The notes below the pieces were generated by a model. That model had not been told where the DNA came from. It saw only the letters and a program-made list of their open reading frames with translations, and did not search any database. From positions 772,501 to 836,500 of the forward strand of contig NZ_AP022673.1 in the NCBI RefSeq assembly GCF_013374115.1: a stretch of 64,000 nt of DNA. The letters are read 5' to 3'. This DNA is from Sphingomonas sp. HMP9 (lineage in GTDB: Bacteria; Pseudomonadota; Alphaproteobacteria; Sphingomonadales; Sphingomonadaceae). Positions 37,613 through 47,577 of this stretch are shown one piece after another (position 1 is the stretch's first letter; each line of letters opens with the position of its first letter). The position numbers and the translations under genes were made by a program.

Positions 37613-39048
37613 GCACTGTCCTGGTCGTTGACGACGACGCCGCAATCCGGACCGTCGTCGGACAGGCGCTCCGCCGGGCGGGACATGACGTCACGGTCGC
37701 CGACAGTTTGGCGCAACTCGAACGCGCGCTGACCGCGTCGCTGCCCGACGTCCTCATCACCGATGTCATCCTCCCCGACGGCGACGGCATCGACCACGTC
37801 CGCAGCGTCGCCGCGCGCTTTCCGTTGCTCCCGATCATCGTCCTCTCGGCCCAGAACACGCTGACCACCGCGGTCCGCGCCGCAGAAGTCGGCGCCTATG
37901 AATACCTCCCCAAGCCGTTCGACCTCGATGTGCTGACTCGCGCCGTCGCGGGCGCGCTGGCCCGCGGCGGGATGGCCAGCGAGGACGCGCTGCACGACGC
38001 GGATCGCGCACTCCCGCTGATCGGTCGGTCTGCCGCGATGCAGGACGTCTATCGGATCATCGCCCGCGTCGTGTCGAACGACCTGACAATACTGATCTCG
38101 GGCGAATCAGGCACCGGCAAGGAACTCGTCGCGCGCGCGATCCACGATCTCGGGCCCCGCAATGCGGCGCCGTTCGTGGCGATCAACATGGCGGCTATCC
38201 CGCGCGAACTAATCGAAGCCGAACTCTTCGGGCACGAGCGTGGCGCGTTCACTGGCGCGGCGACGCGCAATGCCGGTCGGTTCGAACAGGCGTCGGGCGG
38301 GACGCTGTTTCTGGACGAGATCGGCGACATGCCGATGGAGGCACAGACCCGCCTGCTCCGCGTGCTACAATCAGGCGAGTTCACCAGCATCGGCGGTGCG
38401 CGGACGATCCGCGTCGACGTCCGCATCGTTGCCGCCACCAACCGCGATCTCAACGCGCAGGTTGCCGCGGGGCACTTTCGCGAAGATCTTTTCTACCGCC
38501 TGAACGTCGTGCCCATCCTGCTGCCGGCGTTGCGCGAGCGACGACAGGATATCGCCTTGCTCGCGCGTCACTTCCTGGACCACGCCGCGGCACAGGGTCT
38601 TCCAAGGCGCCAACTCGCAAGCGATGCACTGACTGCCCTCGGCGCGCACGACTGGCCCGGCAATGTCCGCGAGCTCGAGAACCTCATGCGCCGGCTGGCG
38701 GTGCTCTCGCGCGACGAGGTGATCGCGGCCGACGCGATCCGCGCGATGATCGGAACATCAGCGACCGCCGATCAAGCCGCCGATGTCGACATCGCCCATG
38801 CAGTGCGTGCGCTGATCGAGCGGATCGCCCGTGACGATCCCGCGGCACTCGATGACGGAAGCTTGTACGACCGCGTGATCGGCGAGGTGGAACGTCCGCT
38901 GATCGAGGCGATGCTGGCGCGGCATGGTCAAAATCAGCTGCGGGCCGCGCGGGCGATGGGGATAAATCGCAACACACTGCGCAAGCGGCTCGATACGCTC
39001 GGCATCACGGTTGCCGACATGCGTACGAATGATCCGGATCAGCGATGA
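37609..39048 (+). CDS. ntrC: Nitrogen regulation response regulator NtrC
   Basis: Sigma-54-dependent activator of nitrogen-assimilation genes. It has 479 residues. The receiver domain (1-120) has phospho-acceptor Asp52. The AAA+ domain has Walker A GESGTGKELVARAIH, an intact GAFTGA loop (ERGAFTGAA) and Walker B GGTLFLDEIG. A Fis-type helix-turn-helix lies at the C-terminus (about 430-475, HGQNQLRAARAMGINRNTLRKRL). The start ATG at 37609 overlaps the ntrB stop; the longer open frame upstream lies inside ntrB. Followed after 53 bases by ntrY. Confidence 0.97.
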   Translation: MSTVLVVDDDAAIRTVVGQALRRAGHDVTVADSLAQLERALTASLPDVLITDVILPDGDGIDHVRSVAARFPLLPIIVLSAQNTLTTAVRAAEVGAYEYLPKPFDLDVLTRAVAGALARGGMASEDALHDADRALPLIGRSAAMQDVYRIIARVVSNDLTILISGESGTGKELVARAIHDLGPRNAAPFVAINMAAIPRELIEAELFGHERGAFTGAATRNAGRFEQASGGTLFLDEIGDMPMEAQTRLLRVLQSGEFTSIGGARTIRVDVRIVAATNRDLNAQVAAGHFREDLFYRLNVVPILLPALRERRQDIALLARHFLDHAAAQGLPRRQLASDALTALGAHDWPGNVRELENLMRRLAVLSRDEVIAADAIRAMIGTSATADQAADVDIAHAVRALIERIARDDPAALDDGSLYDRVIGEVERPLIEAMLARHGQNQLRAARAMGINRNTLRKRLDTLGITVADMRTNDPDQR

Positions 39049-39101
39049 AATCGCGCATTATGTGGTTTCAAGGCAACGATTGACGTTGTACCGAAGCAAC
39101 G

Positions 39102-41345
39102 ATGATCGCTTCCGCGACGCTACCGATGGATGAAGACGGGCCTCTGCACCGGTTTGCGGTGACGCCTGCGATCGAGGCGCTGGTCCTCGCGGTGGCGATT
39201 GCGATCGGCGTCGCGAGCTACTTCATCATCACGGGCACTGACGCACCGCAGCGCCTGATCCCGCCGCCGCTGGTGGCGCTGCTGCTCATCGCCAATCTCG
39301 TGCCCGGGATCGCGTTGCTGATGCTGCTCGGCCGCCGCGTGGCGATGCGCCGGGCCGCACGGTCACCCGTAGGCGGCGGTGGACGCCTCCACGTCCGCCT
39401 TGTCGCGCTGTTCTCGATCGTCGCGGCGCTGCCGATGCTGCTGGTGACGATTTTCGCCTCGCTGCTGTTTCAGTACGGCGTTCAGTTCTGGTATTCCGAT
39501 CAGGCACGCGGGATGCTCGAGAACGCAACCGGGCTCGCCCAGTCGTCCTATGGGCGCCAGCTCAACCGATGGCAGGAAGCCACGGTCACGATGGCAAGCG
39601 ACATGTCGGCGTATCTGCGCGAACGCTCGCTGCAGAGCCCCGACTTCTCCGGTTGGTTCCTCCAACAGGTCTATTATCGCAGTCTTTCGGAAGCGGCGTT
39701 GTTCAAGGTGTCTCCACAGCAAGGCATCCAGACGCTGGCGATCGTCAACCCCTACGAGATCGACTTTACGCGTCGCGTCACGCCCGCGGCGATCGCTGAG
39801 CTTCGATCGGGCAAGAGCGCGGTTCTCGCAGTAACCGGCGATCGTATCCAGACGATCACGCTGCTGCCGGGATCGGACGAGCTGTTCCTCTACGCTGGCC
39901 GCGTCGAGGATACGAAATCTTTGTCCGAGCAGACGACGCGCGCAAACGAAGTGCTGAAGAGTTATCGGTCGCTGCTTGCCCGTTCGCGCAGCCTGCAATT
40001 GCGGTTCAACGCGGCGCTGTTGCTGATATCGCTGCTGATCGTCGGGGTCGCCGTGTGGATAGCTCTGGCGGTAGCGGATCGCCTCGTGCGGCCGGTCGGC
40101 GAGCTGGTCGACGCCGCCCGCCGGGTCGCCGCGGGCGATCTGACCGCGCGCGTGCCCGACCCGCGCAGTCGTGACGAGGTCGGTACGCTGGCCAATGCCT
40201 TCAACCAGATGACGGTGCGCCTCGAAGAACAGAACACCGAACTCGTCACCGCCAACGGCCAGCTCGAAAGCCGCCGCGCGCTGATCGAGGCGGTGATGGC
40301 GGGTGTGTCGGCCGGCGTCATCGCTACCGGTCGTGATCGTACGATCACGATCACCAATGCATCCGCGACGGGGTTGCTGGGAACGGGGGCCGGCAGCGTC
40401 AATCTCGTCGGGCGCAAGCTCGGCGATGTCGCGCCGGAACTCGACGCGATGCTCGACAGCGGCGACAGGGAGGCGATCGTCGAGGTCGGGCAGGGGGGCG
40501 AGATGCGCACGCTCGCCGTCCGGATCGCGCGACCCGCGACCGGACCGATCCTGACCTTCGACGACATTACGCAACAATTGCTCGATCAGCGCCGCGCCGC
40601 GTGGTCCGATGTCGCCCGCCGCATCGCGCACGAGATCAAGAACCCGTTGACGCCGATCCAGCTGGCAGCCGAACGGCTGCAGCGTCGGTATGGTGGCAAG
40701 ATCGAGGCGCAGGACGGCACGTTCTCGCGGTTGACCGACACGATCATTCGCCAGGTTGGCGATCTTCGCCGCATGGTCGATGAATTCTCGTCGTTCGCGC
40801 GCATGCCCAAGCCAGTGTTCCGCGAGGAATCTCTGGTCGATGCCGCACGCCAGGCATTGTTCCTGCACGAGGTCGCGCATCCGGCGATTAGCTTCCAACT
40901 GGTGCAGGACGATCCCGGCCTCGCGCTGGTTTGCGATCGGCGGCAGATCGGCCAGGCGCTGACGAACATTGTCAAGAACGCGGTCGAAGCGATTGAAACA
41001 CGGGGCGAACCCGGCGGTTCTGTGACGATGACGTTGACCAGCGATGCGAACACGGTCGGCATCGCGGTCGCCGACACCGGCATTGGCCTGCCGGCGGAAC
41101 GCGACCGAATTGTCGAGCCCTATGTGACGACCCGTGCACGTGGCACGGGGCTCGGCCTTGCCATCGTCAAGAAGATCATCGAGGAACATTGCGGCACGAT
41201 CGGCTTTTCCGATCGGCCGGGGGGCGGTACACTCGTCACCATGATCTTCGACGCCAAGGCGCTGGCCGCGCTCGACCAAGGGGCTCCCGCATCCGAGTTG
41301 GCTGGGGAGGGCCGACTCGACACTATGACCCGCAACCGGACATGA
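39102..41345 (+). CDS. ntrY: Nitrogen/redox sensor kinase NtrY
   Basis: Membrane histidine kinase partner of NtrX, linked in alphaproteobacteria to nitrogen metabolism, redox and envelope responses. It has 747 residues. About three N-terminal transmembrane segments (to about residue 130) are followed by a periplasmic sensor region and another transmembrane helix (about 300-325). A HAMP domain (RPVGELVDAARRVAAGDLTARV), a PAS domain and the H-box [20 protein letters not shown] with a C-terminal ATPase (VADTGIGLP, GTGLGLAIVKK) complete the chain. An ATG eight codons in (MDEDG) is an alternative start. Four bases separate it from ntrX. Confidence 0.95.
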   Translation: MIASATLPMDEDGPLHRFAVTPAIEALVLAVAIAIGVASYFIITGTDAPQRLIPPPLVALLLIANLVPGIALLMLLGRRVAMRRAARSPVGGGGRLHVRLVALFSIVAALPMLLVTIFASLLFQYGVQFWYSDQARGMLENATGLAQSSYGRQLNRWQEATVTMASDMSAYLRERSLQSPDFSGWFLQQVYYRSLSEAALFKVSPQQGIQTLAIVNPYEIDFTRRVTPAAIAELRSGKSAVLAVTGDRIQTITLLPGSDELFLYAGRVEDTKSLSEQTTRANEVLKSYRSLLARSRSLQLRFNAALLLISLLIVGVAVWIALAVADRLVRPVGELVDAARRVAAGDLTARVPDPRSRDEVGTLANAFNQMTVRLEEQNTELVTANGQLESRRALIEAVMAGVSAGVIATGRDRTITITNASATGLLGTGAGSVNLVGRKLGDVAPELDAMLDSGDREAIVEVGQGGEMRTLAVRIARPATGPILTFDDITQQLLDQRRAAWSDVARRIAHEIKNPLTPIQLAAERLQRRYGGKIEAQDGTFSRLTDTIIRQVGDLRRMVDEFSSFARMPKPVFREESLVDAARQALFLHEVAHPAISFQLVQDDPGLALVCDRRQIGQALTNIVKNAVEAIETRGEPGGSVTMTLTSDANTVGIAVADTGIGLPAERDRIVEPYVTTRARGTGLGLAIVKKIIEEHCGTIGFSDRPGGGTLVTMIFDAKALAALDQGAPASELAGEGRLDTMTRNRT

Positions 41346-41349
41346 TTTA

Positions 41350-42726
41350 ATGGCGCTCGATATTCTCGTCGTGGACGACGAACGTGACATTCGCGAACTC
41401 GTGGCCGGCGTCCTGGAGGACGAAGGCTATGAGACCCGCGACGCTGGCGACAGTGATTCTGCCTTGGAAGCGATTGCCGCACGGCGTCCCTCGCTGGTGC
41501 TGCTCGACGTCTGGCTGCAAGGCTCGCGTCTCGACGGGCTGGAACTGCTCGACGAGATCAAGCGTCGCGATCCGTCGATCCCTGTGCTGGTGATTTCGGG
41601 CCACGGTAATCTGGATACGGCCGTCGCGGCGATCCGCCGCGGCGCGTCCGACTTCATCGAAAAGCCGTTCGAGGCCGAGCGGTTGTTGCTGATGGTCGCA
41701 CGCGCGACCGAGACCGAACGCCTCCGTCGCGAAGTGGCCACGCTGCGCGCGAGTGTCGGTCGTGAAACCGACCTGACCGGCAGCTCCGGCTCGATCAACG
41801 GCGTTCGCGCGACGCTGAAGCGGGTAGCGGCAACCGGCAGCCGCGTGCTGATCATGGGCGGGGCAGGAGTCGGCAAGGAAGTCGCCGCGCGCCTGCTGCA
41901 CGGTTGGAGCCTGCGGACCGACGCGCCGTTTATCGTCGTTAGCGCTGCGCGGATGACGCCCGAGCGGATGGACGAGGAACTGTTTGGCGTCGAGGAAGCG
42001 GGCGATCTCGTCCGTCCGGGCCTGTTCGAGCAGGCGCATGGTGGCACGCTGTTTCTCGACGAGATCGCCGACATGCCGATCGCGACGCAAGCGCGGATTC
42101 TCCGTGCCCTGACCGACCAGAGCTTTACGCGCGTTGGCGGTACGCGTGTCGTCAAGGTCGACGTCCGTGTCGTCTCGGCAACCGCCCGCGATCTGGTCAT
42201 TGAAATAGCGGAAGGCCGTTTCCGCGAAGACCTGTATTACCGGCTCAACGTCGTACCGGTAATGATCCCGCCGCTGTCCGATCGTCGCGAGGACATCCCC
42301 GCACTAGTCCAGCATTTCATTGCGCATTACGCATCCGAACGCCGCGTGCCGACGCCGGAAATCGCGCCGGATGCGATGGTTGCGCTGCAGTCCTACGACT
42401 GGCCCGGAAATGTCCGCCAACTTCGCAATGTCGTCGAGCGTACGATCATCCTTGCACCGGGAGACCGGATCGGTCGCATCGATCTCGATCTGTTGCCCGC
42501 CGAGGTCCTGGGTGATCAAGGCGATATCGGATCGGCCGGATCGACCGCGATCATGGGGTCGCCTCTTCGTGAAGCGCGCGAGACGTTCGAGCGCGAATAT
42601 CTGCGGGTTCAGATCCGGCGCTTTTCCGGCAACATCTCGCGCACCGCAAGCTTCATCGGCATGGAGCGTTCGGCGCTGCATCGGAAGTTGAAGCTGCTTG
42701 GCATCACCGAAACGCGCGAGGAATAG
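41350..42726 (+). CDS. ntrX: Nitrogen response regulator NtrX (no GAFTGA loop)
   Basis: Response regulator paired with NtrY. It has 458 residues. The receiver domain has phospho-acceptor Asp53. The AAA+ domain has Walker A GGAGVGKEVAARLLHG and Walker B GGTLFLDEIA. A C-terminal Fis-like helix-turn-helix is in ISRTASFIGMERSALHRKLKLLG. Where sigma-54 activators have GAFTGA, this protein reads LFGVEEAGDLVRPGLFEQ, so the loop is missing. A role independent of sigma-54 is therefore likely, as reported for other alphaproteobacterial NtrX proteins. Its gene is the last of the ntr block before a hairpin and hfq. Confidence 0.94.
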   Translation: MALDILVVDDERDIRELVAGVLEDEGYETRDAGDSDSALEAIAARRPSLVLLDVWLQGSRLDGLELLDEIKRRDPSIPVLVISGHGNLDTAVAAIRRGASDFIEKPFEAERLLLMVARATETERLRREVATLRASVGRETDLTGSSGSINGVRATLKRVAATGSRVLIMGGAGVGKEVAARLLHGWSLRTDAPFIVVSAARMTPERMDEELFGVEEAGDLVRPGLFEQAHGGTLFLDEIADMPIATQARILRALTDQSFTRVGGTRVVKVDVRVVSATARDLVIEIAEGRFREDLYYRLNVVPVMIPPLSDRREDIPALVQHFIAHYASERRVPTPEIAPDAMVALQSYDWPGNVRQLRNVVERTIILAPGDRIGRIDLDLLPAEVLGDQGDIGSAGSTAIMGSPLREARETFEREYLRVQIRRFSGNISRTASFIGMERSALHRKLKLLGITETREE

Positions 42727-42738
42727 ACGCCGCATTTT

Positions 42739-42767
42739 CGCCGCCCTCTGGATATAATAGGGCGGCG
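42739..42767 (+). terminator. Hairpin after ntrX, possible terminator
   Basis: CGCCGCCCT (42739-42747) pairs perfectly with AGGGCGGCG (42759-42767) around an 11-base loop. There is no T-run downstream, so if it ends transcription it is not a classical intrinsic terminator. The loop contains TATAAT (42753-42758), but no good -35 box lies at the right distance, so I read it as a hairpin rather than a promoter. Confidence 0.45.
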
Positions 42768-42867
42768 ATCATAGATCAGTATCCGTGCCCGGGATCCGGG
42801 TGCATCTCCGACGCCGGGAAACGGCGCCTCGCGGGCAAAGTCCCGCCAAAAACAAAGGGTTATCCCA
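42768..42867 (+). promoter_or_regulatory. Structured 5' leader of hfq
   Basis: About 100 bases between the post-ntrX hairpin and the hfq TTG contain several short stems: CCCGGGATCCGGG, GCCGGGAAACGGC and GCGGGCAAAGTCCCGC. These are followed by an A-rich stretch (AAAAACAAAG) running into the Shine-Dalgarno AAGGG. An A-rich element beside the ribosome site is the sort of sequence Hfq's distal face binds, so autoregulation of hfq is plausible. This is inference from sequence composition. Confidence 0.35.
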
Positions 42868-43380
42868 TTGGCCGATAAACCAGGCTCGCTTCAGGATCTG
42901 TTCCTGAACGCACTCCGGCGCTCCAAGACGCCGGTCACCATGTTTCTTGTCAAAGGCGTTAAGCTGCAAGGTATCGTTACGTGGTTTGATAATTTTTCGG
43001 TTCTTCTCCGTCGTGATGGGCAGTCGCAACTGATCTACAAGCATGCCATCTCGACGATCATGCCTGCTGGACCCATGGACGTGTCGGCGATCGTCGATGC
43101 CGTTGGAGAGAACCAGAAGAAGCATCCGTTGTTGCAGGAGATATTCCTCAACGCCGTGCGCAAATCCGAAGACAGCGTGACGATGTTCCTGATAAACGGC
43201 GTGATGCTGCAAGGCCAGATCGCAGGCTTCGACCTGTTCTGTATGCTGCTTCAGCGTGAGGGTATGGCGCAGCTCGTCTACAAGCACGCTGTATCGACGA
43301 TTCAGCCTGCGCGCCCGCTGAACCTGGCGGAAGAGCCAACTGATACGGATGACGCCGATGATTCGGACGGTGACGATTGA
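42868..43380 (+). CDS. hfq: Double-domain (tandem Sm) RNA chaperone Hfq
   Basis: Post-transcriptional regulator pairing small RNAs with mRNAs. At 170 residues it is about twice the Hfq core, because the chain carries two complete Hfq Sm domains: Sm1 residues 8-69 and Sm2 88-150. Both have the Sm2 motif YKHA (57-60, 138-141) and begin LQD/LQE-x-FLNA. The linker (70-87) is short and the tail (154-170) is strongly acidic. The domains differ at RNA-contact sites: the proximal position equal to E. coli Gln41 is Asn42 versus Leu123, distal Lys31 is Lys32 versus Met113, and the rim is RRSK versus RKSE. A trimer of such chains would mimic the usual hexamer (inference). TTG is the only start before LQDLF and follows AAGGG. 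Confidence 0.95.
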
Positions 43381-44669
43381 GTAGCGGGTTCGAACGCGAT
43401 CGGGACGAGTTCGCCCGGGGCACACGCGCGATCGTCGTTCTCCCCGATCAGGGGGACGCGACGCGTGATGTCGATGCTCGACTGGAAGAAACTGCGGGGC
43501 TCGCTGCTGCGATTGGTGTGAAGGTCGTCGAGCGGATTGCGTATCGTGTTCGTCAAGCCAAGCCGGCGACGTTGATCGGGAGCGGGCAGGTTGAACTGCT
43601 CGCGACCCAGGTACGGATGGAAGAGGCGGGGCTCGTCGTCTTCGATGCGAGCCTGACGCCGATCCAGCAGCGCAATCTTGAAAAAGCACTTGAAGTGAAG
43701 GTCATCGATCGCACCGGACTGATCCTCGAGATCTTCGGCGAGCGTGCAGCGACGGCCGAGGGCCGTTTGCAAGTCGAACTCGCGCACCTCGATTACCAGG
43801 GTGGCCGACTCGTCCGGAGCTGGACCCATCTCGAACGCCAGCGCGGCGGCTTCGGCTTTCTCGGTGGTCCGGGTGAAACGCAGATCGAGGCGGATCGTCG
43901 GCTAATCCGCGATCGGATGGCGCGCTTGAAGCGTGAACTCGAGCAGGTTAGCCGAACGCGTGGGCTCCACCGTGAACGACGTCAGCGCGCACCCTGGCCC
44001 GTGATCGCGTTGGTCGGCTATACCAATGCCGGAAAGTCGACGCTGTTCAATCGGCTGACTGGTGCCGACGTCATGGCGGAAGATCTCCTCTTCGCGACGC
44101 TTGATCCGACGTTGCGGCAGATGCAGCTACCGGGCGTCGACAAGGCGATCCTCTCGGATACGGTCGGCTTCGTTTCGGATCTTCCAACCCAGCTGGTTGC
44201 GGCGTTCAAGGCCACGCTGGAAGAAGTCGTATCTGCCGACCTGCTCGTTCACATCCGCGATATCGCGCACCCCGATACCGAGGCGCAGCGCGCGGATGTA
44301 GAAACTGTGCTAGCCGAGATCGGTGTCGACGAGAATACTCCGAGGTTCGAGGTATGGAACAAGCTCGACTTGCTCGATGCAGATACGCACGACGAGATTG
44401 CCGGGCAGGCGGCGCATCGCGACGATGTCGTTGCGATCTCGGCGCTTAGCGGGGAAGGGGTGCAGCATCTCGTCGAGCAGGTGGCGGCGAAGCTGACCAA
44501 CGCGCATCGGCGGTACAGCATCGCCATCGAGGCCAGCGACGGTGCGGGCGCTGCGTGGCTTCATGCGCACGGCGAGGTGCTCGGTAGCGTCAACGATGAA
44601 CTCGAGACCACGTACGACGTTCGGCTATCCGAGACCGATTATGACCGGTTCATCCGCCGCGACGCTTGA
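43377..44669 (+). CDS. hflX: Ribosome-associated GTPase HflX
   Basis: GTPase that rescues stalled or hibernating ribosomes. It has 430 residues. The N-terminal HflX domain (about 15-190) has the glycine-rich [19 protein letters not shown] linker. The G domain has G1 [10 protein letters not shown]3 DTVGF and G4 NKLD. It starts at TTG overlapping the hfq stop (TTGA), preserving the widespread hfq-hflX order and coupling the two. Its last 20 bases overlap the convergent mazG. Confidence 0.95.
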
Positions 44670-45384
44670 TGGTGGCCCATAATTCTTCCTTCTGATCGAG
44701 CGTCGAGCCAGCGAACGCCGCGCCGCCTTCGACCTCGATCGCTCGGAAGCGCGCCTCGAACTTTGCATTGCCTGCCCTGAGTGCGGCCTCAGGGTCAACG
44801 CCGAGATGCCGTGCCCAGTTCGTCACGGCAAACAATAGGTCGCCGACTTCCTCCGCTACTGTATCCGAACCAGCCTTGCGAACCTCCTCGATTTCCTCAA
44901 AAACCTTCGCTAGTGGACCCGTCGCATCAGGCCAGTCGAACCCTACGCGCGCCGCGCGCTTCTGCAGCTTCTCTGCACGAGCTAGCGCCGGCAGGCCACT
45001 TGCCACGCCAGCCAGCGCACTGCCATCGGCGCGGTCTGAACGCTCTGAGGCCTTGATCGTTTCCCAACCCGGCGACGTCCTGGCATCGCCGAATATATGG
45101 GGGTGCCGGCGTTCCATCTTGTCACTGATCGCGGTGACGACATCGGCCAGATCGAATGCGCCGGACTCCTCGGCGATCCGACTGTGGAACACTACCTGAA
45201 GCAGCAGGTCGCCAAGTTCGTCCTTGATGTCCGCATGGTGGTCACGCGCTATTGCGTCGGCAACCTCATACGCTTCCTCGATCGTATAAGGAGCGATCGA
45301 GGACCACGTCTGTGCTCGATCCCATTCGCAACCCTCCACCGGATCCCGCAATCGCGCCATGATGGAAGTCAGTCGTTCAATCAT
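44650..45384 (-). CDS. mazG: Nucleoside triphosphate pyrophosphohydrolase MazG
   Basis: Hydrolyses (d)NTPs to monophosphates, clearing abnormal nucleotides. It has 244 residues and two MazG halves. The first has the metal motif EEAYEVADAI with DELGDLLLQVVFH. The second has EEIEEVRKA with EEVGDLLFAVTNW. The N-terminus RLRDPVEGCEWDRAQTWSSI is characteristic. The start is either ATG 45384 or the ATG eight codons later. In the order dusB-ntr-hfq-hflX-mazG it closes the conserved block, but on the opposite strand here and overlapping hflX by 20 bases. Confidence 0.94.
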   Translation of the reverse strand: MIERLTSIMARLRDPVEGCEWDRAQTWSSIAPYTIEEAYEVADAIARDHHADIKDELGDLLLQVVFHSRIAEESGAFDLADVVTAISDKMERRHPHIFGDARTSPGWETIKASERSDRADGSALAGVASGLPALARAEKLQKRAARVGFDWPDATGPLAKVFEEIEEVRKAGSDTVAEEVGDLLFAVTNWARHLGVDPEAALRAGNAKFEARFRAIEVEGGAAFAGSTLDQKEELWATIKRRGG

Positions 45385-45452
45385 GAGAGATATCCGAAGT
45401 TAGCTAAATTTTGATTACTGAAATGAGATCGATAACATACATTATGTAAAAT

Positions 45453-46028
45453 CTAAGCATGGATTGGGGTAAGTATGGGGGTGTTTTTCTCAACCCGCCA
45501 CGACCCGAGTTTAGACAGAAAGTTCATGCCGATCACATCGGTATCGTCGAATGAAGGCGACGTGACGATACCCAGATCGGTCGTGGTGATCGTTCCGATC
45601 GTGACGCGCCTAACCGTCCCAGTGCGTGCCGAGACGTGGCCGTTGGCGGTCGCTATGATCACCGGGAACGGACTTTCTTCGCTGTCCAGCCCGGCCGCCT
45701 TCGCAGTGGCCGCCGACAGCGCGGTCGTGGTCGCTCCGCTATCGATCAGCATTCGCCGTCGTACGCCGTTCATATCGACATCGGCCCAGAAATGCCCGTC
45801 CTCGGCCATGCGGATCCGCGTTGCAGTCCCACTGATCTGCTGGTCGGCAAACAGCGTTTCCAGGCCCGACAACCGGTCCCGTTGGCTCGCGAACAGTAAC
45901 CCCACCGCGAAAATCGCTACCCAAGCCAGCGCTTTCGTCAGCGGCAACCGACGCGCGACAAGTGCCGATAGCGGCAGGATCAGCATGATCGCGTACAGCG
46001 CGAATTGGGCGGCGAGGTCGAGTGTCAC
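45453..46028 (-). CDS. Membrane-anchored retropepsin-like aspartic protease
   Basis: It has 191 residues. Two N-terminal hydrophobic segments (about 8-25 and 32-47) anchor it, followed by a clan AA aspartic protease-like domain. The catalytic motif is LIDSGATTTALS (near residue 95), with hydrophobic-hydrophobic-Gly at VIGMNFLS as the family expects. Bacterial single-domain members work as homodimers, with the active site in the periplasm if topology is as predicted. The GTG start overlaps the stop of the metallo-hydrolase (GTGA), so it ends the metG-tatD-MBL operon. Substrate unknown. Confidence 0.87.
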   Translation of the reverse strand: MTLDLAAQFALYAIMLILPLSALVARRLPLTKALAWVAIFAVGLLFASQRDRLSGLETLFADQQISGTATRIRMAEDGHFWADVDMNGVRRRMLIDSGATTTALSAATAKAAGLDSEESPFPVIIATANGHVSARTGTVRRVTIGTITTTDLGIVTSPSFDDTDVIGMNFLSKLGSWRVEKNTPILTPIHA

Positions 46029-46789
46029 GCCGTCAGCACCATCCCGTCATAGCCCGGCTCGACACCTGCGGGCAGTTCGTGGCGCAATGTGGCGTAGTCC
46101 ATTGTAGTGTCCATATGGATCAGTGCGGTTTGCGTGGGTTTCAGGCGTTCGACCCACTCCAGCACGGCGGGCAAGGCCATGTGCGTGGGATGCGGGCGGC
46201 GGCGCAATGCGTCGACGACCCAGATGTCGAGATCCTCATACAGGATGGCCATATCGTCGGTCATCACGTTGAAGTCCGTCGCATATCCGATCGAGACACC
46301 GTCCGCCTCGAACCGCAGGCCGGCGGCGTGGATGCTGCCGTGCGGCTGGTCCGTGACGCGGATGTCGATCCCGCCGATCGTCAGTCGATCGGGCAAGACC
46401 TCGGCGGCGATCGTCGGTGGATAGCCGGGGCGACCGTGAAAGGCATAGGTGAAGCGCGCGTCGAGTGCCGCCAATGTGAACGGCCGTGCATAGCCGCGGA
46501 CCGGCGTGCCGGTCGCGTGAAAGAGTTGCCGCAGGTCGTCGATGCCGTGGCAGTGATCGGCATGGTCGTGCGTCCAGATCACCGCATCGACCTGGTCGAT
46601 ATCGGCGGCCAGCAGCTGCTCGCGCATGTCCGGACTCGTGTCGACCAGAATCCGCGTGCCGTCATGCTCGACCAGCGCGGAGGCACGCGTACGGCGGTTG
46701 CGGGGCTCGGCCGGGTCGCACTCGCCCCAGTCGTTGCCGATCCTCGGCACGCCGGAGGACGTGCCGGAGCCGAGGATCGTGATCTTCAT
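46025..46789 (-). CDS. Metallo-beta-lactamase-fold hydrolase (PhnP-like)
   Basis: It has 254 residues. The metal-binding motif HDHADH lies at about residues 73-78 (IWTHDHADHCHGIDDL), and downstream metal ligands include His in QPHGSIHAAGL and Asp in YATDFNVM. N-terminal ITILGSGTSSGVPRIGNDWGECDP with cysteine resembles the PhnP phosphodiesterase group. No C-P lyase genes are nearby, so a cyclic phosphodiester or other substrate is unsure. It overlaps tatD upstream and the aspartic protease downstream by four bases each. Confidence 0.88.
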   Translation of the reverse strand: MKITILGSGTSSGVPRIGNDWGECDPAEPRNRRTRASALVEHDGTRILVDTSPDMREQLLAADIDQVDAVIWTHDHADHCHGIDDLRQLFHATGTPVRGYARPFTLAALDARFTYAFHGRPGYPPTIAAEVLPDRLTIGGIDIRVTDQPHGSIHAAGLRFEADGVSIGYATDFNVMTDDMAILYEDLDIWVVDALRRRPHPTHMALPAVLEWVERLKPTQTALIHMDTTMDYATLRHELPAGVEPGYDGMVLTA

Positions 46790-47577
46790 GCGTCCGCCCC
46801 GTGCACCCGTGTCTTACCGAACAGCGTGTGGAAGTTCTCGGCGGTACGACGCGATAATTCCTCGACTTTTTCGCCGCGCAGGTCGGCCAGGAACTGCGCG
46901 GTGTCGGCGACGAAGCCAGGCTCGCCGGTCTTGCCCCGATGCGGTACCGGCGCGAGAAACGGCGCGTCGGTCTCGATCAGCAGCCGCTCGATCGGCAACC
47001 GCGCGGCGGTCTCCTGCAGGTCACGCGCGTTCTTGAACGTGACGATCCCCGATATCGAAATGTAGAGGCCCATGTCCAAGGCCTTGTCGGCGAAAGCACC
47101 GCTCGCGGTGAAGCAGTGGATGACGCCGGGATACGCCCCCTTCCCCATCTCGTCCGCCATGATCGCTGCGGTATCGTCCTCGGCATCGCGCGTATGAACG
47201 ACGATGGGCAGCCCGGTCTCGCGCGACGCCGCGATGTGCGCGCGAAAGCTGGCCTGCTGGCGGGCGCGATCCGAGGTGTCGCGAAAATAGTCGAGGCCGC
47301 TCTCGCCCAGGCCAACCACGCGCGGATGCCGCGCGCGCTCGATGAGCTTGGCGGCATCGACGTCGGGATACACGTCCGCCTCGTTCGGGTGGATGCCGAT
47401 CGTCGCCCAGACGTCAGGCTCGCGCTCGGCGGTCGCGACGATATCGTCCCATTCGCTCTCGCGCGTGGAGATATTGAGCATCGCGGTCACGCCGCGCGCC
47501 CGCGCGCGGGCAAGCACCGCCTGCTGGTCCTCGACAAGACCCTTGTAGTTCAGATGGCAATGGCTGTCGGCGAGCAT
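46786..47577 (-). CDS. tatD: TatD-family metal-dependent hydrolase
   Basis: TIM-barrel metal nuclease (DNA/RNA 3'-5' exonuclease in characterised TatD proteins). It has 263 residues. The paired metal histidines are in DSHCHLNYKG at the N-terminus; the carboxylate/His set includes GESGLDYFR, VVHTRDA and CFTASG. It overlaps metG by one base (TGATG) and the metallo-hydrolase by four (ATGA). metG-tatD-MBL-fold is a common alphaproteobacterial run. Confidence 0.94.
   Translation of the reverse strand: MLADSHCHLNYKGLVEDQQAVLARARARGVTAMLNISTRESEWDDIVATAEREPDVWATIGIHPNEADVYPDVDAAKLIERARHPRVVGLGESGLDYFRDTSDRARQQASFRAHIAASRETGLPIVVHTRDAEDDTAAIMADEMGKGAYPGVIHCFTASGAFADKALDMGLYISISGIVTFKNARDLQETAARLPIERLLIETDAPFLAPVPHRGKTGEPGFVADTAQFLADLRGEKVEELSRRTAENFHTLFGKTRVHGADA

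Follow-up and report, generated by a model that had tools for sequence, protein, structure and literature searches.

In a ring of six identical Hfq subunits, a mutation in the one gene cannot alter a chosen three of the six sites. The hfq gene analyzed here, located in a stretch of 64,000 nucleotides from Sphingomonas sp. HMP9 (the window), encodes two Hfq domains in a single chain and raises the question of whether the two have become different and, if so, how they would be arranged. The double architecture as such has been described before and is the rule in the family. What the present analysis adds is a half-specific signature that is conserved family-wide, and the two Hfq halves behave like two subunit types fixed in equal number.

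Two Sm-like domains were described in the Hfq of Zymomonas mobilis, an arrangement common to six other species of the Sphingomonadales (Yang et al., 2010; PMC2877685), which agrees with the long Hfq proteins that a preliminary description of this DNA had mentioned for some sphingomonads. The accessible part of that study poses the three-chain ring as a question to be tested, reports that the Z. mobilis hfq mutant has a lower tolerance of several inhibitors and does not take up a specialization of the halves. The protein of Z. mobilis ATCC 29191 is 161 amino acids long according to the part of PMC4004385 at hand; the family alignment used below was built without the Zymomonas protein. The accessible parts of the Zymomonas papers PMC4004385, PMC9797736, PMC5770649, PMC7546472 and PMC7064620 contain no structural or half-specific analysis of Hfq, PMC8102297 holds nothing on the double form, and PMC10725011 has Hfq only within its reference list. 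Searches of an open-licence library, outside which most subscription journals lie, listed no paper on specialized Hfq halves; this is consistent with the earlier remark that the subject appears little explored.

The two-domain gene and its surroundings

The hfq gene is a single open frame (Table 1). Its product matches Pfam PF17209 (Hfq) in two stretches that give the entire protein a score of 192.6 bits (cut-off 27), and residues 2-161 are covered with 286.2 bits (cut-off 270) by NCBIfam NF010691 (PRK14091, RNA chaperone Hfq), which is a model of the entire two-domain protein. The motif YKHA is present in each half. These matches bear out the initial reading of two complete Hfq domains in one 170-residue chain and set the protein apart from canonical Hfq, which has one Sm domain per chain. 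The genome of the window contains one hfq match. Frames on the minus strand overlap the gene; the family match is that of the plus frame.

Table 1. Positions of hfq, its parts and its neighbors in the window
Feature	Position	Strand	Description
ntrX response regulator, upstream neighbor	41350..42726	+	NF051870, 741.6 bits, cut-off 600
hfq, two-domain RNA chaperone Hfq	42868..43380	+	170 aa, TTG start, TGA stop
Sm/Hfq domain 1, residues 8-70	42889..43077	+	Pfam stretch 8-70; rim RRSK, Lys29/Lys32 distal, Asn42 proximal
Codon for Lys29 (E. coli position 28)	42952..42954	+	Lys in 155/155 N-halves
Linker, residues 71-87	43078..43128	+	predicted helix 73-79; linkers across the family near-neutral on average
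Sm/Hfq domain 2, about residues 88-150	43129..43317	+	Asn110/Met113 distal, Leu123 proximal, rim RKSE
Codon for Met113 (E. coli position 31)	43204..43206	+	Met in 148/155 C-halves
Acidic C-terminal tail, residues 151-170	43318..43377	+	low-confidence part of the structure model
hflX GTPase	43377..44669	+	TIGR03156, 462.9 bits, cut-off 216.75

The gene sits between ntrX and hflX. The start codon of hflX and the stop of hfq share 4 bases (43377-43380), an overlap that suggests translational coupling of the two genes. An hflX gene was found in the flank of 74 of the 75 relatives checked, the exception being locus L086. Directly upstream of hfq, positions 39102-42726 hold ntrX together with a gene for a sensor kinase, which would be ntrY judging from its location; the kinase gene had no equivalog match. 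Neither an Rfam match at gathering score in 38500-47500 nor a sigma-70 promoter-like or terminator-like site in 42600-43500 was found. A plasmid search returned a single match of 132 bases, within ntrX.

An AlphaFold2 model built from 70 aligned sequences predicts a pair of Sm folds, a connecting linker that contains a short helix, and a low-confidence tail (mean pLDDT 91.3, pTM 0.85). The best structural match of this model is the Hfq of Caulobacter. Among the 50 matches listed by VIA-align, all lie on the first domain bar one (residues 85-151, 8bvj_V), and none of the 35 matched sequences of the PDB copy is a two-domain Hfq chain, the longest having 114 amino acids.

Distribution and origin of the double form

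All 163 genomes of the family to which the window belongs were read at the hfq locus, which yielded 155 double, 8 single and no triple forms. A scan of the order matched 240 of 246 genomes. Its other seven families contributed 77 of these matches; 30 of the 77 were read at the locus, and all 30 were single, one of them a partial match; a weak score alone cannot exclude a divergent double in the 47 unread genomes of these families. One genome from another family of the order (G001) has a second, partial hfq match, to query residues 2-44. In a sample of the class, 157 of 190 genomes matched, and the 27 loci read outside the order were all single. In a sample of the phylum, 247 of 349 genomes matched and 14 scored above the two-domain cut-off, all 14 of the same family as the window, a count out of 349 in which divergent doubles might fall under that cut-off. 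Among the groups sampled, two-domain Hfq is thus confined to Sphingomonadales.

Named protein matches point to Sphingomonadaceae as the family of the window and to Sphingomonas as its genus. Some of the loci read could likewise be linked to named species. One single-domain product (L032) has exactly the sequence found in Sandaracinobacteroides saxicola, and further named matches of single-domain length come from Polymorphobacter, Sandarakinorhabdus and Sphingosinicella microcystinivorans. Nine loci (L031, L040-L047) encode doubles of a Sphingomicrobium type, about 140 amino acids long and with halves as low as 29% identical; the product of one of the most divergent, L045, is identical to that of Sphingomicrobium flavum. 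Their tails are short and divergence has affected both halves, which makes them a natural test case.

Two further candidate forms were considered. Five matches of 241-248 amino acids (P0002-P0006) contain three Hfq domains each and scored higher than their double relatives. They sit on contigs of 791-1621 bases, and in five of five the middle domain switches half-type within the domain. Triples were absent from the 163 family genomes and, with P0002 as a double-like query, from the best 80 named loci of a scan, all of which were double; assembly chimeras or rare unequal crossover are the most likely source of the five. Matches of 131-142 amino acids might have formed a second family of short doubles, but those that were opened proved to be ordinary doubles with a truncation or a shifted start or, in the case of P0235, one domain extended upstream.

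The history of the locus was read from its flanks and from the domains themselves. In a tree of ntrX and hflX, for which 75 of the 155 doubles were used, the doubles form one clade (0.987). Its sister group (0.992) comprises seven of the eight family singles, and the remaining single has a deeper position, beyond a long-branched locus of another family. The domain trees rest on about 60 columns. In the first of them (FastTree, 324 distinct rows), the 137 distinct C-halves form one clade (0.846), the N-halves are intermixed with single-domain proteins and form no clade, and the C-halves fall outside all alphaproteobacterial singles, a placement such as either long-branch attraction or a foreign C-half would give. 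In a mixture-model tree of 64 rows and 61 columns, with most forks unresolved, N-halves form one clade (88) and so do C-halves (90, 19 of 19). Here N- and C-halves as a single clade had a log-likelihood 4.0 higher and were not rejected (p-AU 0.6).

A one-residue insertion relative to E. coli, common to the other alphaproteobacterial domains, is present in 155 of 155 C-halves. Mean identity is 0.83 among N-halves, 0.70 among C-halves and 0.58 between the two halves of one protein; N-halves are 0.76 identical to the singles and C-halves 0.59. Taken by group, C-half identity is 0.61 to the singles of the order, 0.58 to the rest of the class and 0.48 to E. coli. A foreign C-half appears unlikely: it carries the alphaproteobacterial insertion throughout, its identity is highest to the singles of the order and its union with the N-halves was not rejected. 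Given the trees, the insertion and the mean identities, the best supported origin is a tandem duplication inside the lineage in which the N-half stayed the more conserved copy, and a single such event explains the pattern of 155 doubles and 8 singles.

Homologues with only one conserved half had been named in the preliminary description as counter-evidence. Eight singles were indeed found among the 163 family genomes, but they look pre-duplication, not like losses, because their branches lie outside that of the doubles and they have Asn28/Lys31; secondary loss is, on the same grounds, unlikely. In all eight, too, ntrX was found upstream of hfq.

Half-specific residues, rim and tail

For the comparison of the halves, residues were numbered as in E. 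coli Hfq, and the 155 doubles were set beside 65 single-domain proteins (8 from the family and 57 from outside it). The most consistent change, absent from the preliminary description, concerns position 28: Lys occupies it in all 155 N-halves, and Asn in 154 of 155 C-halves and 65 of 65 singles. In the window protein, this position corresponds to Lys29 in the first half and Asn110 in the second. That Lys fills this position in every one of the 155 N-halves but in 0 of 65 single-domain proteins is more than chance. At position 31, N-halves have Lys (146) or Arg (9), C-halves have Met (148/155) and singles have Lys (65/65). Once the nine Sphingomicrobium-type loci are left out, the pattern at 28 and 31 holds in both halves of 146 of 146 proteins. 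Position 63 is Met in 142 of 155 N-halves versus Gln in 149 of 155 C-halves, and Met in all 65 singles. Position 41 is Asn in 137 of 155 N-halves and in 62 of 65 singles (Ser in the other 3), and Leu in 128 of 155 C-halves, followed by Gln (12) and less frequent residues.

The residues that the preliminary description had assigned in the window protein were correct (Asn42 and Leu123 for position 41, Lys32 and Met113 for position 31, rims RRSK and RKSE), and its claim that the halves have diverged at RNA-binding positions now extends to a divergence conserved across the 155 doubles. For position 41 the claim stands in part: Leu of the C-half is derived, but Asn of the N-half is the usual residue of single-domain relatives and represents no divergence. 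Neither half shows any variation at Gln8, Lys56, Gln52 or Leu32, and His57 is found in 151 of 155 N-halves and 155 of 155 C-halves; both halves of the window protein possess Gln8, Lys56 and His57 of the proximal uridine site.

What such positions do is described, in the accessible parts of the respective reports, for single-domain Hfq. In Pseudomonas aeruginosa, the distal purine site is formed by two adjacent subunits and the backbone amide of Lys31 contacts a phosphate (PMC6422490). Asn28 makes a water-mediated base contact, and residue 41 contributes to the proximal site through an amine contact (PMC10628458). In E. coli, nearly all sRNA-mRNA chimeras were lost in R16A and they fell almost fourfold in K31A, with a smaller effect on regulation (PMC12262471, preprint).

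The rim and the tail differ between the halves as well. Mean net charge of residues 16-19 is +2.82 in N-halves, +0.13 in C-halves, +3.0 in family singles and +2.82 in singles from outside; the N-half exceeds the C-half in 149 of 155 proteins, equals it in 4 and is lower in 2. The window protein has a basic rim (E. coli 16, 17 and 19) that is complete as RRSK in the N-half and weakened in the C-half, where the loss is partial and mild because RKSE is still present. Across the 155 doubles, mean charge is 0.0 for linkers and -5.8 for C-terminal tails, compared with -3.9 for the tails of 38 single-domain proteins, and the tail of 147 of 155 doubles has a charge at or below -2.

Both halves are under purifying selection, with dN/dS of about 0.11 (N-half) and 0.20 (C-half), values that derive from 902 non-independent pairs of 146 proteins with synonymous sites near saturation. 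The faster evolution of the C-half may reflect relaxed constraint, which could yield part of the divergence as well. A rival reading is a neutral fusion. The ring would form, but both halves would serve one function; with half of the sites being enough, the C-half would tolerate change, and its differences would be drift. The greater variability of C-halves (identity 0.70 against 0.83), their higher dN/dS and the wide variation at their rim positions are what such a fusion would produce, yet we consider it unlikely. Some derived states are near-fixed (Lys28 in 155/155 N-halves, Met31 in 148/155 and Gln63 in 149/155 C-halves), and drift in the fast half cannot account for the fixation of a new residue in the slow one.

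Arrangement of the halves and known systems

A three-chain ring, which Yang et al. (2010) had brought up earlier, is plausible for such a protein. The reading that we favor, and regard as fairly probable, is that one in-frame duplication led to a three-chain, six-domain ring whose N- and C-halves alternate in rim, tail and distal face. The tandem duplication would have taken place once, on the stem of the double-form lineage. Three chains would close into one ring with the halves in alternation, all six proximal pockets would retain the uridine-binding core of Gln8, Phe/Tyr42, Lys56 and His57, and the basic rim would be carried mainly by the N-halves. The basic rim of E. coli Hfq serves annealing. 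A free acidic tail would be found on the C-halves only, the former tail of the N-half having become the near-neutral linker. In Caulobacter Hfq, the acidic tip lies against the neighbor's basic rim, which fits autoinhibition of annealing (PMC6561178, accessible part), and by analogy each C-half tail, neighbored by N-halves, could dock on N-half rims. With tails on C-halves and rims mainly on N-halves, every tail would thus face a rim; three tails would match three rims, and the rim without its covering tail would be the one that lost much of its charge. The distal face would alternate a Lys28/Lys31 site with an Asn28/Met31 site, which may alter the repeat that is read.

A more tentative step is an enforced division of labor between three and three, in which annealing would fall to three rims, the subunits between them would bear three autoinhibitory tails, and the two types of distal site would read a doubled RNA repeat, not six equal A-R-N units. 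We view this extension as possible, with somewhat more doubt than confidence. In Z. mobilis, according to the accessible part of PMC7064620, the sRNAs Zms4 and Zms6 were not bound by Hfq in vitro or in pull-downs, their levels were independent of hfq, and hfq is needed for fitness, a general chaperone role not yet having been shown there, according to the authors. These results weaken annealing claims for the double Hfq. Against this objection counts the sRNA SuhB of Sphingopyxis granuli, for which the part of PMC6563040 at hand reports an Hfq-dependent repression of thnR.

The domains might also be stacked, with a hexamer of N-halves and a second layer of stacked or dangling C-halves, so that six chains would contribute twelve domains. 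With 15-24 residues from one domain boundary to the next, the linker would allow more than one topology; the pTM of the model suggests a defined domain-domain placement, although it is weak evidence for the ring itself, and we rate the stacked arrangement as quite improbable. Two polypeptides arising through internal initiation or linker cleavage are highly improbable, for a Met is available in 54 of 155 linkers (counted with a few flanking residues; Met70 in the window protein) but lacking in 101.

If the alternating ring is taken as the guide, the numbers of rims, tails and distal sites needed per ring become testable by point mutation, because the two site types are separately encoded. The double Hfq is a clear case of an Sm protein turning asymmetric, with a single origin that can be traced.

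Known systems share individual features with the window protein. Hfq of Z. mobilis (ZMO0347) likewise has two Sm domains in one chain, as far as the accessible part of PMC2877685 describes it. Hfq of Caulobacter crescentus (PDB 6gwk), the closest solved relative, shares the Sm fold and a short acidic tail; it differs in being a single-domain protein with rim and tail on every subunit (PMC6561178, accessible part). From the model NF010691, whose scan left out the divergent Sphingomicrobium-type doubles, the window protein shows no difference and matches it in full length above the cut-off. Eukaryotic Sm/LSm rings consist of non-identical Sm domains supplied by seven separate proteins. Compared with these rings, which are named in the accessible part of PMC2877685, the window Hfq has two domain types per chain and six domains expected per ring. 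If true, a ring of three and three would form a natural step from homomeric Hfq to the heteromeric rings of Sm proteins.
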